From Gongronella butleri (Eukaryota > Mucoromycota > Mucoromycetes > Mucorales > Cunninghamellaceae): DNA of 64,000 nt. The first letter of the stretch is position 1. The number at the start of each line of letters is the position of its first letter. The stretch is from assembly GCA_025201375.1 (NCBI GenBank), contig JAIWZP010000054.1, positions 1 through 64,000 on the forward strand, given 5' to 3'. Positions 54,377 through 60,275 of the stretch are shown here, one piece after another. Under the pieces are notes generated by a model. It did no database searches, was not told where the DNA came from, and saw only the letters and a list, made by a program, of their open reading frames with translations. The position numbers and the translations under genes are program-made.

Positions 54377-55369
54377 AAAAAAAAGAAGAATCAGGCTCGC
54401 AAAGCTGCATGTACCCCCTTTTTTTGATTTTTGACGCCCACCTCTAATCGATCGGCCAGCTTTCGCCTCCCCACACCATGCATGTACCAAAACCTTACTT
54501 TTTAGCACCAATAAAAAAAAGCAAAGCATCTCTCCTCTTCCCGAGCGAAAATGTTTGCCCAGGCAAAAAAAAAAAAAAAAAAGGCGTGCCTCCTTTCTGA
54601 CATAATAATGAAGCGTGGCAAACTTAGCCATTGACCACAAGTGCCGTCCTCGCTACAACCTTCATTACCGAAAACCTGTCTTAATGCGAAAAAGGCTTCT
54701 GTTTATTATGTAGTCCACCTAATAAAAACCACCCGTCTTTTGATTTTCAAGCCTTTCCCACTATCATTCATAGCTGATCTGCTTGACAATTAATGCCTGG
54801 CATCACACACATACCATGTCGCCCTGCTATATGATACTGTAGGATTGCGCTGTGCCCAATGACATTAGGTGTTTTCTGCCGCTGCAGAAGCCTAATTTTC
54901 AAGTTTCTTGTACCTTTTACAGTATCATACGATGATTTGTTCTTGGTCACTTGGTGCGATTGGCAAGGACGATGATACTTTCTGATGATTCCACCACTTT
55001 GCCTGCCATATGATATTCACAAATATTTGAGCTTGTGAAAGCGTGAAAAAAAGCAATCAGCATCTCAGCAAATACCCGCGAAGCCGAGAAAAATGCATAA
55101 AAGCACGAATTTCGTCCGTTTTCGATGTTTACGTACACACGAATATGATAAAGCGATTGATCTATCATATCCATGTTTATGATAGAGCATTTACAGTATA
55201 TGTTGCAGTAATGGACAGAAACTGACGCGTGCTATCATTTTAAAGTATGATACTGGTGCTGTAAATCTGTAATAATACTTACAGTACCAGTCTACCAGAT
55301 GCATTGCGCTGCACTGCATAAAAACGTACACATTTACGGTAGAACGGTACCACCATTAAAAATCAAAGC
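54377..55369. other. AT-rich intergenic region with palindromic TACTGTA/GTATCATAC words
   Basis: No gene. Repeated short words: tatgatactgtagg (about 54832), ttacagtatcatacgatg (54919), catttacagtatatg (55188), agtatgatactgg (55244), acttacagtacc (55277). The same words recur at 59600, 61030-61100 and 62090-62180. Confidence 0.55.
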
Positions 55370-55626
55370 GTGAGTTTTCAGGATTTGGGAGGCTTTCTGT
55401 GCCTCCAGAAATTTTTTTACAGTCCACTTTCCCGCCAATGAAAACTGCGTCACAGCGTAAACTATGTATGATATAGCTCAGTGCTCAATACAGACCCGCC
55501 CGATTTTTTTGGACATGAAAATGTAAAAATGCGTGTTTTCAGACTTTGCAGGCCTGGTGTGCCTCCAGAAATTTTTTTACAGCCTACTTGCCCGCCAATA
55601 ATGAAACTTGCATCATCGTCGCGTAA
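55370..55626 (+). repeat. Tandem host repeat units (about 165 bp), second unit interrupted
   Basis: Unit 1 (about 55370-55535) and the first half of unit 2 (55536-55626) share ttcag, tgtgcctccagaaat, tttacag, cccgccaat and atgaaa. Unit 2 resumes at 59353 after the mobile element, and unit 3 covers about 59416-59590. The same unit opens the dispersed repeat at 22470. Unit 1 holds the uninterrupted target gcgtaaactat. Confidence 0.75.
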
Positions 55627-55848
55627 GGTGGTGGGTCAAGTCTTTTAGTTCATCTTTTGATTAAATGTCCAAATGATGACCAAGAAAATATCAAAAATTA
55701 GACATTCCCGGTGGTGCATCGAAGCAAAGACACGGGTCTATCCTTAGCGTACACCCTGGGCAAAGTATATTATAATACAAAAATGGGTAATTAAATTACA
55801 TCAGTTTTATTATAATTGCCATGTATATCTGGTAATAATCGACCTCCT
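55626..55848 (+). repeat. Terminal direct repeat, left copy
   Basis: 223 bp starting aggtggtgggtcaagtc and ending taatcgacctcct. One mismatch to the right copy (A at 55763 against T at 59268). Confidence 0.92.
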
Positions 55849-55861
55849 CCTTGTTTTAAAA

Positions 55862-57294
55862 TTAACCCTCGCTTATGGTAAGCATATATTCTTGTACCAT
55901 ATTCCCATCATCATTAAATTTATCCATTGATAGCCACTTGTTATGTCTGTTGTCATATCCAATCCATTTTACTCTATATTGAATTCCATTTGGGGTATGA
56001 CGATGCTCAATAATCCTCTCGACTTCGTAACTATTATGATCTGGATCTTGCATTATCTCTTCGGTAGTGTTAACAACACCACTCTCTTGGGCAAAAACCT
56101 CTTCAATAGTAAGATTAAAAAGCTGTTGTTGTATCATCTCTATTTTCTCTTTATGTGCACGCCTATCGGAAATACTCAAAATATCGACGACATCATAAAC
56201 AGAACTAGTAGAAGCAGTACCACCATAATAATCAAAGTCTTTATGCATCCAAAATGTATGATGATCTGTATGTTGAAGCGGTCCCATGGCTACAAACTTT
56301 TTCATGTTGCTTAAAACACATGCCAACTTGAATTGTACCGTAAATACAGCATCTTCAGACACGCGGATCACAGATTTACCGTTAAATCGATGAAAAAGAT
56401 GGCCAAGCTCTCCAAAACGAGATTCTATAGACGATCTAAACCCACCAAGCAGCTGGTTATATGCTGTCTCTTCTGCACTAAGATTTACGCCTCTTGATCT
56501 CCTAACAGGAGTCACAAAACTCTCAAGCTGAAGATGGGAGTTCATACATAATATACGATCAATAAATAGAGTATAGCCTCCATCCACGCAAACAGCATCA
56601 AATCGACTTATTTTATCAGATAAATCCATTGACACCAGCATCGATCCATCGTTATTTGTACCACATGGTGCTGCTTTTGAAACAAACAAGATCATGCTAT
56701 TGGTATCCATGCCTACCTGGGTGCGAAAGCCAGACTTTTTCAATTTGTATGAATAATAATAATCAGCTCTTGACGTTGCATTTATGTATGTTGCTCGTGA
56801 GTCATGACCATCAATCATCATGGTAACGTGCCTAAACTCGTTAGGATTCATCTCTCTTGCACACATCACCCTTATTTTTACATTTGAAAACATCTTAGCT
56901 AGGCATTCATCTAATTTCTTATCTAAAAAGTCTAATTGCTTTGCATAAAACACCCGGTAAATGGCGTTGAAGCTGCTTTTTGGGATGAATTGCCCCATTT
57001 GACTCATGGATGCACCGGTCAATAGATGATACAAAATCAACAGGCCTTTCTCCACTCCACGATATGGTCCAGGATAGTCTTTATTGCTAAATAAAACAGA
57101 CAAAAAGAAAAATACGGGTATATAACCTAAGTGCTCAAACACATAGTTTTTTACAATCTCTATACCAACGATGCTCTTACGGTAATTTCTGATCGATGAT
57201 GCTTCTCTCTTTCAACAACAGGCCAGTCATCATGAAAAAATGTCCAATAATTTCTAACTAAATACTGAAATAATTGTCTTAGATCTTCGTTCAT
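55862..57294 (-). CDS. DDE transposase-like protein with C-terminal chromodomain; apparent frameshift near the N-terminus
   Basis: The main frame runs 57142-55862 (426 residues) and continues open upstream to about 57212, but lacks an ATG there; the ATG at 57294 starts a 38-codon frame (MNEDLRQLFQYLVRNYW) that would join it only with a one-base shift near 57201-57213, a GA-rich run. GT-AG introns do not restore the frame. DDE_4-like landmarks: MMIDGHDSRATYIN (first Asp), DAVCVDGGYTLF (second Asp) and SSIESRFGELGHLFHRF (Glu with HARBI1-like context). The last ~55 residues are a chromodomain: YEVERIIEHRHTPNG, YRVKWIGYDNRHNKWLSMDK, a methyl-lysine reader. A chromodomain could steer insertion to heterochromatin, as in some retrotransposons. 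The gene is divergent from the 556-aa ORF, 112 bp away. Confidence 0.75.
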
Positions 57295-57406
57295 TTTTGC
57301 CTTTGCTCCTATAAGTATGTATTCAAATAAAAAAGGTCATGTGACACACGTCACTATGTGAAGAGCTATTTATTATGAAACTCCGCACTCCGGCAGAAAG
57401 CCCATA
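57295..57406. promoter_or_regulatory. Central divergent promoter of the mobile element
   Basis: 112 bp between the two element genes; AT-rich with tatttattatgaaa near the 556-aa ORF start. A short upstream ATG (57374) opens an 11-codon frame ending in TAA just before the main start. Confidence 0.4.
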
Positions 57407-59077
57407 ATGACCTCAACCCTTCTCGTTAACACTTTTTTCAACGAACATGCTCAATACATCAATGATGTTTATGGAATAAATTATGTTAAAAATTATGATC
57501 AACTTTATGGCTGGACGGACCATACTAGCATGTTTGTCGATAGCATCATGCTCTGGTGTGCATTCGATATGGAACAAGATGATGCTTCAAAAATGATCAA
57601 ATCTTTTCTGGGTATCATCAGCTCCATGTTTGTCCGTCATTATGAAAAGCACCAATTTTACATAAAATATATAAGAAAGGGTGTCTGGAATAGTTTTGAC
57701 AAAGAGTCGGAGGAAATGGAGATCCAGGAGACATTTAGCAAAATGGGTTATATTGGGATCAACGCGACTTTTCATGACATTGGCGTTTCAGGCGTTTTCC
57801 ATTCTTTGAGACGTGTACTTGCTGAATTGCGCAAAAACAATATTATACTTCGAAGCATTGATGTGACTGTTGACTGCGGCTATATTTCAACTCGCATGAT
57901 CATTGAGAAATACGTCCTGAGTCACAAAATTGCAACCAAAGGCGATATTGTAAATGATCATGGGCGCGTAGGTGACAATTGCATTTCGTTTCTTGGAAAA
58001 TCAGCCCTTTTAAATAACGCAAATACACGCACTAAAATTTACAATAAGTTTATCCAGGCTTTGGAAAGCTCGCAAGTACTTGTCCCGCTTGGATCACGCC
58101 TCAGTCACCTGGTCGCAGATCGTGACTCGTTGTATATGGAAAAATTGAAACGCTTTCTAAACACTGGTTATACTCGTATTGAGTTATCTATTTATGGTAG
58201 TACGCTCTTTAGTCCTACGTCATATGAGCGCGCAATGGATGACCTACTTGACAAGCTAGCCGGCTGCTGCCCAACATTTAATGTGCCTTTGCGGGAGCAA
58301 TGGCATATGATTGTAGATAAACTAACACAGGTTGCTGCAGTGTATGTGGAAAACACAAATACGTTTGCATACTGTCATTGGTGGAACTCTCTTACAAAGA
58401 AAAAGCAAGGCATTTGTAAAGATAAAATCAAGAGAGACGATCTTAAGTGCTTCTTAACTAACTTTAGCTTTAATGATAGAGTGATTCACTGTTTTTTTAT
58501 CAAACAGATTGAAAACAGCTCAGCATATGAAATTATTAATCATAAGCGTTATATGAGAGCTGATGGTTGCACAGCCATGACGTTGACACCAGGTTTGTCA
58601 AATTCACTCTTTCCTTCTCGTGGTCGGCTTCAAATAAAAGATATCATGTTTGCAGATGTTGGACTTGATATCTATAAGAACATACATATCGAATGGCCTC
58701 TCAATCGCTTAGAAAATACGGTCGATCGAACTGTGACCAGTCTTGTGCAAAGATTAGACGACGACGCATTCAACTTGTCGTCAATCCGAGAAGCCATGCC
58801 ATCTGCTTTGCAGGTGATTAACAGTCCTCAAGTATCTCAATATACATCTGACCGCAAGTGCCTTCTAGCCAATGTCTCATACAACGTAATAAAGTATGGA
58901 TATGCCAGTTTCAGGGGCAAAATGTGCCTTCATTTGGTGCTAGCGGATGGTTTGATGGTGCGCTGCGGGAATAAAATGCAAGACGTTATTGAACCAACAA
59001 TTGGGGAAGGTGTGGTGTTTAGTTTCTTTGTCGATAACGTCACTTACAGAGACGTCACATGCAGGATTGTCATCTAA
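57407..59077 (+). CDS. Large ORF of the mobile element, unrecognised family (556 aa)
   Basis: Single exon, 556 residues, no stop interruptions, so it looks intact. I cannot assign a family. Segments that may be conserved: SIDVTVDCGYISTRMIIEK (about 163-181), CISFLGKSALLNNANTRTKI followed by YNKFIQALES (about 190-220), LGSRLSHLV, and GYTRIELSIYGSTLF (about 252-266). The succession of a Lys-containing YNKF block and a T-R-I-E-L-S block recalls replication-initiator proteins of plasmids and small DNA elements, but I see no HUH motif and cannot confirm it. The C-terminal third (from about 450) may be a beta-rich domain. In PIF/Harbinger elements the second gene is a Myb-like DNA-binding protein; this protein shows no Myb pattern. 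Confidence 0.75.
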   Translation: MTSTLLVNTFFNEHAQYINDVYGINYVKNYDQLYGWTDHTSMFVDSIMLWCAFDMEQDDASKMIKSFLGIISSMFVRHYEKHQFYIKYIRKGVWNSFDKESEEMEIQETFSKMGYIGINATFHDIGVSGVFHSLRRVLAELRKNNIILRSIDVTVDCGYISTRMIIEKYVLSHKIATKGDIVNDHGRVGDNCISFLGKSALLNNANTRTKIYNKFIQALESSQVLVPLGSRLSHLVADRDSLYMEKLKRFLNTGYTRIELSIYGSTLFSPTSYERAMDDLLDKLAGCCPTFNVPLREQWHMIVDKLTQVAAVYVENTNTFAYCHWWNSLTKKKQGICKDKIKRDDLKCFLTNFSFNDRVIHCFFIKQIENSSAYEIINHKRYMRADGCTAMTLTPGLSNSLFPSRGRLQIKDIMFADVGLDIYKNIHIEWPLNRLENTVDRTVTSLVQRLDDDAFNLSSIREAMPSALQVINSPQVSQYTSDRKCLLANVSYNVIKYGYASFRGKMCLHLVLADGLMVRCGNKMQDVIEPTIGEGVVFSFFVDNVTYRDVTCRIVI

Positions 59078-59130
59078 ACAATATATTATATCGGCGTCAT
59101 ATCGTACTGTTTTTAAAATTTATTTACTGT

Positions 59131-59353
59131 AGGTGGTGGGTCAAGTCTTTTAGTTCATCTTTTGATTAAATGTCCAAATGATGACCAAGAAAATATCAAA
59201 AATTAGACATTCCCGGTGGTGCATCGAAGCAAAGACACGGGTCTATCCTTAGCGTACACCCTGGGCATAGTATATTATAATACAAAAATGGGTAATTAAA
59301 TTACATCAGTTTTATTATAATTGCCATGTATATCTGGTAATAATCGACCTCCT
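59131..59353 (+). repeat. Terminal direct repeat, right copy
   Basis: 223 bp, same orientation as the left copy and nearly identical; begins 53 bp after the stop of the 556-aa ORF. Near-identity suggests recent insertion or gene conversion. Confidence 0.92.
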
Positions 59354-59419
59354 AAACTATAGTAGCCCAGTGTTCAATACAGACCCGCCCGATTTTTTTG
59401 GATATGAAAATGTAAAAAT
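59354..59419 (+). repeat. Second half of the interrupted host repeat unit
   Basis: Reads aaactatagtagcccagtg and on to acagacccgcccgattttt, matching the 3' half of the unit at 55463-55515. Confidence 0.7.
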
Positions 59420-60275
59420 GCGTGTTTTCTTCAGACTTTGCCGGCCTGTTGTTGTGCCTCCAGAATTTTTTTTACAGCCTACTTGCCCGCCAATGAAACT
59501 TGCGTCATGACGTAAACTACCGGTATAGCTCCGTGTTCAACAAGACGGAGTGACGGACCCGCCCGATTTTTTTTGGACTCGAAAATGTACCTACTACAGT
59601 AAAAAAATATGATACAGTATGACCCAGCACCAACCACCGCGCGCCTACAGTGAGTAGCGGAGGGCATTAGAGATGAAGGCTCGCCCGGAAGCTAGTTCAG
59701 CGCAAAATTTGCAACAAAAAAGCTTAAACCCCCCAAAGTTCTACTACGACCACTACTTTTGAAAAATTCAGGGGTCACTCAGGAACCACACTTTTCAATC
59801 TCAGAAAATGCCAAATTTGGGAAATTTCGAACTCCGAGTGATCAATGCATCCCAAACAGGTAACTCCGACGATTTGCTATTGGCAGGCAAAATGGCAGGT
59901 CGCCTCAAGCCCTCAACGCAAGAAAAATGCCCAAAGAACAACGATGCATGAACGGCGATCGACTGAGAAAAATGCCTACTTTGGGCAAGCTTTTTTTGTA
60001 AAAATTTAAGGTTTGACACTTCCAAATTAAGGTGGTGGTGGATTGCATGGAATTTTTTTATTTTTTTAATTATTTTTTTTTGTTGTGCGTTATTAAATTA
60101 TTATTTAAGTGGTGGTGCGTGGTGGCGGTGGGGGCTCCTCTTCCAGGCTGGTGAAATGACCAATGCAAAAAGTTAAACCCCAAGCAAACGCACTGCAAGT
60201 CATTCCATTAGATGATGCTTTGCCTCTCTGTTTGTTATTACAGTATGATAGTAAATCTGGAATAAAAATCACGGG
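59420..60275 (+). repeat. Composite dispersed repeat, copy 2
   Basis: Parallels 22470-23235 over most of its length (landmarks given there), with a host unit (59420-59590) at its left end followed by a short insertion carrying atatgatacagtatgacc (about 59600). Copies differ by many substitutions and small indels, so they are old. Confidence 0.75.

Follow-up and report, generated by a model that had tools for sequence, protein, structure and literature searches.

Introduction

PIF/Harbinger (PHIS) transposons carry two genes between short inverted ends, encode a DDE_4 transposase with its DDE residues, duplicate 3 bp of target DNA and prefer TWA as the target. Helitrons and Replitrons, both HUH rolling-circle transposons of eukaryotes, encode a rolling-circle nuclease. 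Another design has been described in animals as KolobokP, where an internal region lies between long direct repeats that have short inverted ends of their own and also occur solo with target-site duplications (TSDs). KolobokP elements encode two proteins, a DDE transposase of the Kolobok type and a His-Me finger homing endonuclease; their repeats are ~450 or 660 bp, their duplications 3–4 or 4–5 bp, and multimers occur, but several families are described without them (Kojima and Bao 2022, PMC9587614). Here, we describe an element of this overall design from the fungus Gongronella butleri (Mucoromycota; assembly GCA_025201375.1). It occupies positions 55,627 to 59,352 of the window, which is the whole stretch of 64,000 nucleotides analyzed (contig JAIWZP010000054.1, positions 1 to 64,000, forward strand). 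Unlike KolobokP, it resides in a fungus and combines an unrelated DDE_4 transposase that bears a chromodomain with a predicted Rep_trans-like nuclease. Its direct repeat, R, and those of its relatives measure 221–246 bp, the TSDs are 3 bp and no multimer is present among 12 elements.

The second protein, ORF2, has its best structural match in the Rep_trans (PF02486) initiators and MOBT relaxases, including RepC/RepD of pT181-type plasmids, RepSTK1 and RelSt3/NicK. According to a 2026 report, Rep_trans enzymes seem to be confined to bacteria, to which the report adds a distant archaeal family (PMC13107129). These archaeal Rep-Arvir initiators were connected with Rep_trans through structure and active site rather than sequence, and TBP folds are among their matches (PMC13107129). 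ORF2 is likewise linked to Rep_trans through structure, with TBP fold matches. Rep-Arvir proteins differ in belonging to archaeal viruses and plasmids and in carrying a KHYYM motif, whereas the ORF2 motif, K-x-Y-N-K, resembles that of the Rep_trans proteins aligned here.

We consider it probable that the window element is a composite-like DNA transposon of the form R–internal–R, in which the DDE_4/chromodomain transposase moves either this form or R alone, and ORF2, a Rep_trans-like enzyme, copies or recombines a circle. The broader proposal, whose chances we see as evenly balanced, is that of a eukaryotic lineage pairing a DDE transposase with a Rep_trans-type initiator, with a plasmid-like, replicating circular stage. 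With its ORF2, a replication enzyme of Rep_trans fold would be known for the first time from beyond bacteria and archaea.

Architecture and target site of the window element

A repeat search of the window returned a raw 223-nt direct match, 55626–55848 and 59131–59353, with a spacing of 3505. A first-pass annotation had recorded 223-bp direct repeats with one difference. The repeats are real, but R proper (GGTGG...CCTCC) spans 221 nt, and the outermost base at either end of the 223-nt match is a chance identity. The parts of the locus are as follows.

55370..55535, no strand: intact host-repeat copy, an empty target (coordinates from the first-pass annotation; alignment run on 55366–55560)
55624..55626, no strand: left TSD, TAA (from the sequence; lone TAA in the intact host repeats)
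55627..55847, + strand: left direct repeat R, 221 nt, with short imperfect inverted ends GGTGGTGGGTCA / ..CGACCTCC
55720..55737, + strand: 18-mer CGAAGCAAAGACACGGGT within left R, with a second occurrence in right R; candidate cis site, function putative
55862..57142, − strand: transposase, DDE_4 plus chromodomain (from Pfam and frame comparison among copies)
57407..59077, + strand: ORF2, 556 aa, predicted Rep_trans-like rolling-circle initiator
59132..59352, + strand: right direct repeat R, 220/221 identical to left R
59353..59355, no strand: right TSD, TAA (from the sequence and host-repeat comparison)
59416..59590, no strand: second intact host-repeat copy, an empty target (coordinates from the first-pass annotation; alignment run on 59431–59610)

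The annotation had described a mobile element with two divergent genes, TAA at both ends and an empty site in the same window, and each of these holds. The window flanks joined in silico align with both intact host-repeat copies, which contain a single TAA, and the only frames of more than 150 aa in the internal region are the DDE_4/chromodomain protein (−) and ORF2 (+). The termini, however, had been read as direct and not inverted, and every R is itself bounded by short, imperfect inverted ends, one GGAGGTCGGTCA-like and the other CGACCTCC-like, with GGCGATCGGGCA in family 2 (families are defined below). By eye, the host repeat hit by the window insertion resembles the flank of the C92 solo R (L010) and may be a repeated target.

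Related elements in the genome

The 33.0-Mb assembly of 110 contigs was searched with the window element as query. Further copies, which the first-pass annotation had proposed to look for, are present: the at least 34 matches comprise five full copies at 99–100% identity, seven solo R and diverged relatives. At seven of nine relative loci searched, the element has direct repeats of its own that are almost identical to each other. In total, 12 R–internal–R elements could be delimited, five of the window type and seven in three diverged families.

Family 1: R of 221 nt; five elements; TSDs TAA, TTG, TTT and TTT, with C50 lacking a TSD
Family 2: R of 243–246 nt; elements C59, C45, C100 and C20; TSDs CTA, ATA, TAT and TAG
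Family 3: R of 224–227 nt; elements C52 and C29; TSDs AAA and TGT
Family 4: R of 243 nt; element C2; TSD AGA

With the outer flanks paired, a perfect 3-bp target duplication is seen at 11 of the 12 elements. Because the duplications differ among elements, TAA is one instance of a 3-bp target that varies in sequence; it had been taken as diagnostic, but the other four family-1 copies have TTG, TTT, TTT and none. A TWA preference is not observed, as TTG, TTT, CTA, ATA, TAT, TAG, AAA, TGT and AGA occur besides TAA.

Several features vary among the elements. The internal parts of the five family-1 copies show, by eye, about 20 substitutions and seven 3- or 5-bp insertions, each in one or two copies. 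The family-2 element at C20 409025–420415 is interrupted by ~7.6 kb of other DNA and retains matching R copies and its TAG duplication. The family-4 element, with a repeat spacing of 4754, is longer and contains an additional 285-aa frame between the two genes (L022 2497–3351, − strand). A fifth R family (C105 67415–71246; 154 nt shared in C105) gave 36 genome matches, above the other families, and was excluded from all counts, as its right end could not be fixed. The genes are divergent in families 1 and 2 and co-directional in C29/C52, C2 and C105 (L014, L016, L022 and L023 versus L001 and L020). Orientation thus differs between families, and internal modules have therefore been inverted.

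Repeat R, solo and in pairs

The first-pass annotation had seen R only as an element terminus, but R is also dispersed solo through the genome. A 3-bp duplication flanks 32 of the 35 solo R with both ends readable: 6/7 in family 1, 7/7 in family 2, 6/6 in family 3 (two with common flanks, representing one duplicated locus), 4/5 in family 4 and 9/10 in a diverged family-2 group. The 32 include L094, L104 and L105, each with a duplication; L096 and L103 were not counted, since they lie next to internal sequence, nor was L116, a fragment of 59 nt. Because R has its own inverted ends, and its own target duplications when solo, it appears to be a transposable unit in itself, with the features required for separate mobilization by a DDE transposase. 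Solo R may stem from such transposition or from recombination within the R pair of an element, and the data fit both.

Within an element, the two R differ at 0–1 positions, with a 3-nt indel in C29, and both R copies of the C100 element (family 2) share a 3-nt insertion unique to that element. Such near-identical pairs are the long terminal repeat (LTR)-like signature of two ends from one template. C50 is the only family-1 element whose R copies are unlike at a shared variable site and the only one without a TSD, as expected of a recombinant.

The 18-mer CGAAGCAAAGACACGGGT is exact in the otherwise diverged R of family 2 and absent from the R of families 3 and 4. A conserved hairpin origin in R was also considered. 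In families 1, 2 and 3 and one family-2 subfamily, the best 45-nt fold of one or both strands lies near the R center. The strongest of these folds was equaled in 3 of 60 shuffles and family 4 differs; the hairpin was rejected, and only the 18-mer was retained as a candidate.

Fold and active site of ORF2

The predicted structure of ORF2 best matches RepSTK1, a Rep_trans rolling-circle initiator. The predicted fold contains a two-lobed TBP-like sheet, and TBP chains are also among the top fold matches. The catalytic domain covers approximately residues 30–305 and is followed by a C-terminal region of ~250 residues that is extra relative to Rep_trans enzymes. In the latter, the site consists of metal ligands D46, D142 and E214 and nucleophile Y191, together with R189, K193 and E196 (Q184 in RepSTK1); R140, A144, D146, R212 and T-x-Y-x-G are also described as conserved (PMC4797284).

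We aligned 38 ORF2 sequences, taking 37 of 40 relatives and dropping P0013, P0024 and P0025 as partial. D152, D156, K210, Y212, K214 and R257 are present in all 38, Q217 and E259 in 37 and D45 in 36. In the predicted structure, D45 is on the first long strand, D152 and D156 share one strand, and K210 and Y212 are positioned at a strand end, followed by a helix with K214 and Q217; R257 and E259 are on a later strand. With equivalence assigned by order and secondary structure, ORF2 contains the Rep_trans set in order: three metal acids, the Tyr, Arg/Lys at Y−2, Lys at Y+2, Glu/Gln at Y+5 and R-x-E. The order is the same as in RepDE and RepSTK1. Based on the predicted fold and these ordered active-site residues, we assign ORF2 as a Rep_trans-like rolling-circle initiator, putatively a single-strand endonuclease that depends on tyrosine and metal; support for this assignment is good but falls short of conclusive. 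The first-pass annotation had left this protein as unknown, which stands in that no family matches by sequence, but predicted structure and active-site residues make it recognizable as Rep_trans-like.

Unlike the Rep_trans enzymes, ORF2 is part of an integrated eukaryotic transposon, beside a DDE transposase, and has no significant sequence similarity to them. The window ORF2 has no Pfam match at E ≤ 10 and hence none to Myb/SANT, in agreement with the non-Myb partner first proposed. Searches of ORF2 against Pfam, PHROGs and NCBIfam gave scattered weak matches only (best E 0.004). Against the PDB by sequence, the single protein gave none and the profile only ribosomal L3 (E 1.2). A PF02486 search of the G. 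butleri genome gave 0 matches, with Bacillus subtilis positive as control; tblastn of the ORF2 relative P0020 against plasmids returned no match, and an IMG/VR pattern scan no confirmed relative.

Direct profile comparison of ORF2 with Rep_trans was weak. A single pT181 Rep sequence aligned over just 14 columns of the ORF2 profile (probability 1%). Profile–profile probability was 0.7% with 5 Rep_trans sequences and 3% with 35 (P 0.015), and 0.2% in global mode. The 35-row profile, mostly of pT181 type, was composed of 22 of 37 loci, five A2 sequences, P0041 and seven of the nine loci L070–L078; those seven were chosen for a frame with the Rep_trans motif, and no such frame came from L077 or L078. 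Within the weak 35-sequence local match, the DxxxD and Y-N-K motifs are in register, and extension of the alignment brings in the first acid and R-x-E as well. None of 200 column-shuffled profiles reached the score (maximum 23.3 versus 25.1; reversed 18.3), a lenient test, as shuffling also erases strand and helix patterns.

An HUH transposon was rejected. H324 is the only invariant His in the 38 ORF2 sequences, and the His-hydrophobic-His motif of HUH nucleases is absent from them. Helitrons and Replitrons, the eukaryotic transposons with a rolling-circle nuclease, use enzymes of another fold, and ORF2 differs further in being paired with a DDE transposase.

Transposase and association of the two genes

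A DDE_4 transposase with a chromodomain had been predicted in the first annotation, and both domains of the window frame (DDE_4, residues 125–279; C-terminal chromodomain, 372–419) score above Pfam cut-offs. The window frame is shifted near its 5′ end, while C17, C25 and C100 are open from ATG (474–475 aa). By our own assignment, the candidate DDE residues are D160 and D235, invariant in 21 aligned sequences, and E288, nearly so. In all, 166 transposase relatives were found and 120 listed; the chromodomain is present in 87 of those 120 (precomputed Pfam column, counted by eye). Named relatives among the matches listed are from Cunninghamella, Rhizomucor, Lobosporangium, Dissophora, Entomortierella, Mortierella, Apophysomyces and Lichtheimia. 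The element differs from PIF/Harbinger in this chromodomain, in the long direct repeats that carry its ends and in lacking both a Myb/SANT partner and a TWA preference.

Intact reading frames for both genes are found in members of several families; some copies have broken frames. Between families, the nonsynonymous proportion (pN) is well below the synonymous one (pS) for both genes (C17 versus C59, pN/pS 0.28 for ORF2 and 0.17 for the transposase), with synonymous divergence (dS) saturated for most ORF2 pairs; judged by sequence, the genes look to be under purifying selection. Element copies are near-identical and therefore probably recent. The transposases of C17 and C59 share 86% identity and those of C17 and C29 69%; for ORF2, the corresponding values are 64% and 67%. 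This divergence of identities suggests that the two genes have differing histories, with module exchange between families. Seven contig sizes are common to both protein listings (3700, 3698, 3607, 3597, 3585, 3383 and 3363 bases), which suggests that the gene pair recurs on unit-length contigs; it is no proof of circles, as collapse of repeats in assembly gives equal lengths.

Discussion

In the cycle that we favor, the transposase would cut at the inverted ends of R and insert whatever spans a left and a right end. The inserted forms are R–internal–R (3.7 kb) and R alone (0.22 kb), with 3 bp of target duplicated, and both forms and their duplications were seen in the census. Solo R would thereby be mobile rather than a recombination remnant. 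A circle would consist of the internal part and one R, and ORF2 would nick it, probably within R, driving rolling-circle copying. The transposase would then insert a product with one cut at the left end of a given R and the other at the right end of the R that follows, and both R of an insertion would thus descend from a single R. A possible circular stage had been raised in the first-pass annotation and is supported as a possibility; the circle itself is what we infer. Translocatable-unit circles are described for IS26-type pseudo-composite transposons, whose repeat encodes the transposase (PMC9587614). There too, direct repeats frame a unit that may cycle as repeat plus internal part, although R of the present elements contains no gene.

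Several observations weigh against this cycle. PF02486 has a significant match in none of the 38 aligned ORF2 sequences, and three further conserved features of Rep_trans, R140, A144 and T-x-Y-x-G, are not kept, the ORF2 residues being S/D150, T/A/S154 and C192/S194. No concatemer was caught: none of the 12 elements is a multimer of the form (R–internal)n–R, and no family-1 internal–internal junction was found in the genome, where match counts are lower bounds. Near-identical R pairs could also be produced by gene conversion.

The main rival is a KolobokP-like course without a rolling circle, which we hold to be rather unlikely yet worth serious attention. The transposase would again move R–internal–R and R, and ORF2 would only nick or break R and stimulate unequal exchange or gene conversion, by which R is kept identical and solo R are yielded. 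Induced unequal crossover was put forward for KolobokP, which has the same design (Kojima and Bao, PMC9587614), and near-identical R pairs and solo R suit recombination equally well. However, nucleases of the ORF2-like class are, where tested, replication initiators or relaxases and not homing endonucleases (PMC4797284, PMC6499999). Unequal exchange should also leave multimers, and their absence, like that of a family-1 internal–internal junction, is a weak argument against it, given 12 elements and several KolobokP families likewise described without them (PMC9587614). There is a small chance that ORF2 instead has no nuclease activity and serves the transposase as a DNA-binding cofactor of TBP fold, in place of the Myb/SANT protein of PIF/Harbinger. 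Harbinger itself and Nuwa, an element group reported from the same superfamily, encode such a Myb/SANT DNA-binding protein, and TBP chains rank high among the ORF2 fold matches, but the invariant residues of ORF2 include a metal- and tyrosine-dependent active site.

The remaining explanations concern R. It has inverted ends of its own and occurs solo with target duplications, as would a short non-autonomous relative that had inserted twice and bracketed an ordinary PIF/Harbinger element by chance. This is very improbable: the target duplications sit at the outer ends of the R pair, the pair is near-identical per element, and four diverged families with differing R share this design. LTR-like traits are likewise present in the long direct terminal repeats and the solo copies, yet we give almost no credence to an LTR retrotransposon or tyrosine-recombinase element mistaken for a DNA transposon. 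The R ends are inverted (GG...CC), the window internal region codes for only the DDE_4/chromodomain protein and ORF2 above 150 aa, and the reverse transcriptase plus integrase of an LTR retrotransposon were not found in the element frames. A composite-like transposon, probably copied as a circle by ORF2, is the reading that we retain.

As a check of published architectures revealed, the overall design is already known from KolobokP, with a different transposase and another class of nuclease; what is new is that a eukaryotic transposon encodes a Rep_trans-like enzyme. Among open-licence PMC papers, we found no report of the design in fungi or in combination with either this transposase or this class of nuclease, although Repbase may hold such families, and none of a eukaryotic Rep_trans-type enzyme. 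If the assignment is true, the eukaryotic branch would bring rolling-circle enzymes of this second, non-HUH kind to all three domains. The elements would also be a second, unrelated instance of the direct-repeat composite design, and they offer a test of how DNA transposons gain LTR-like ends, through a nickase-copied circle or through induced recombination.

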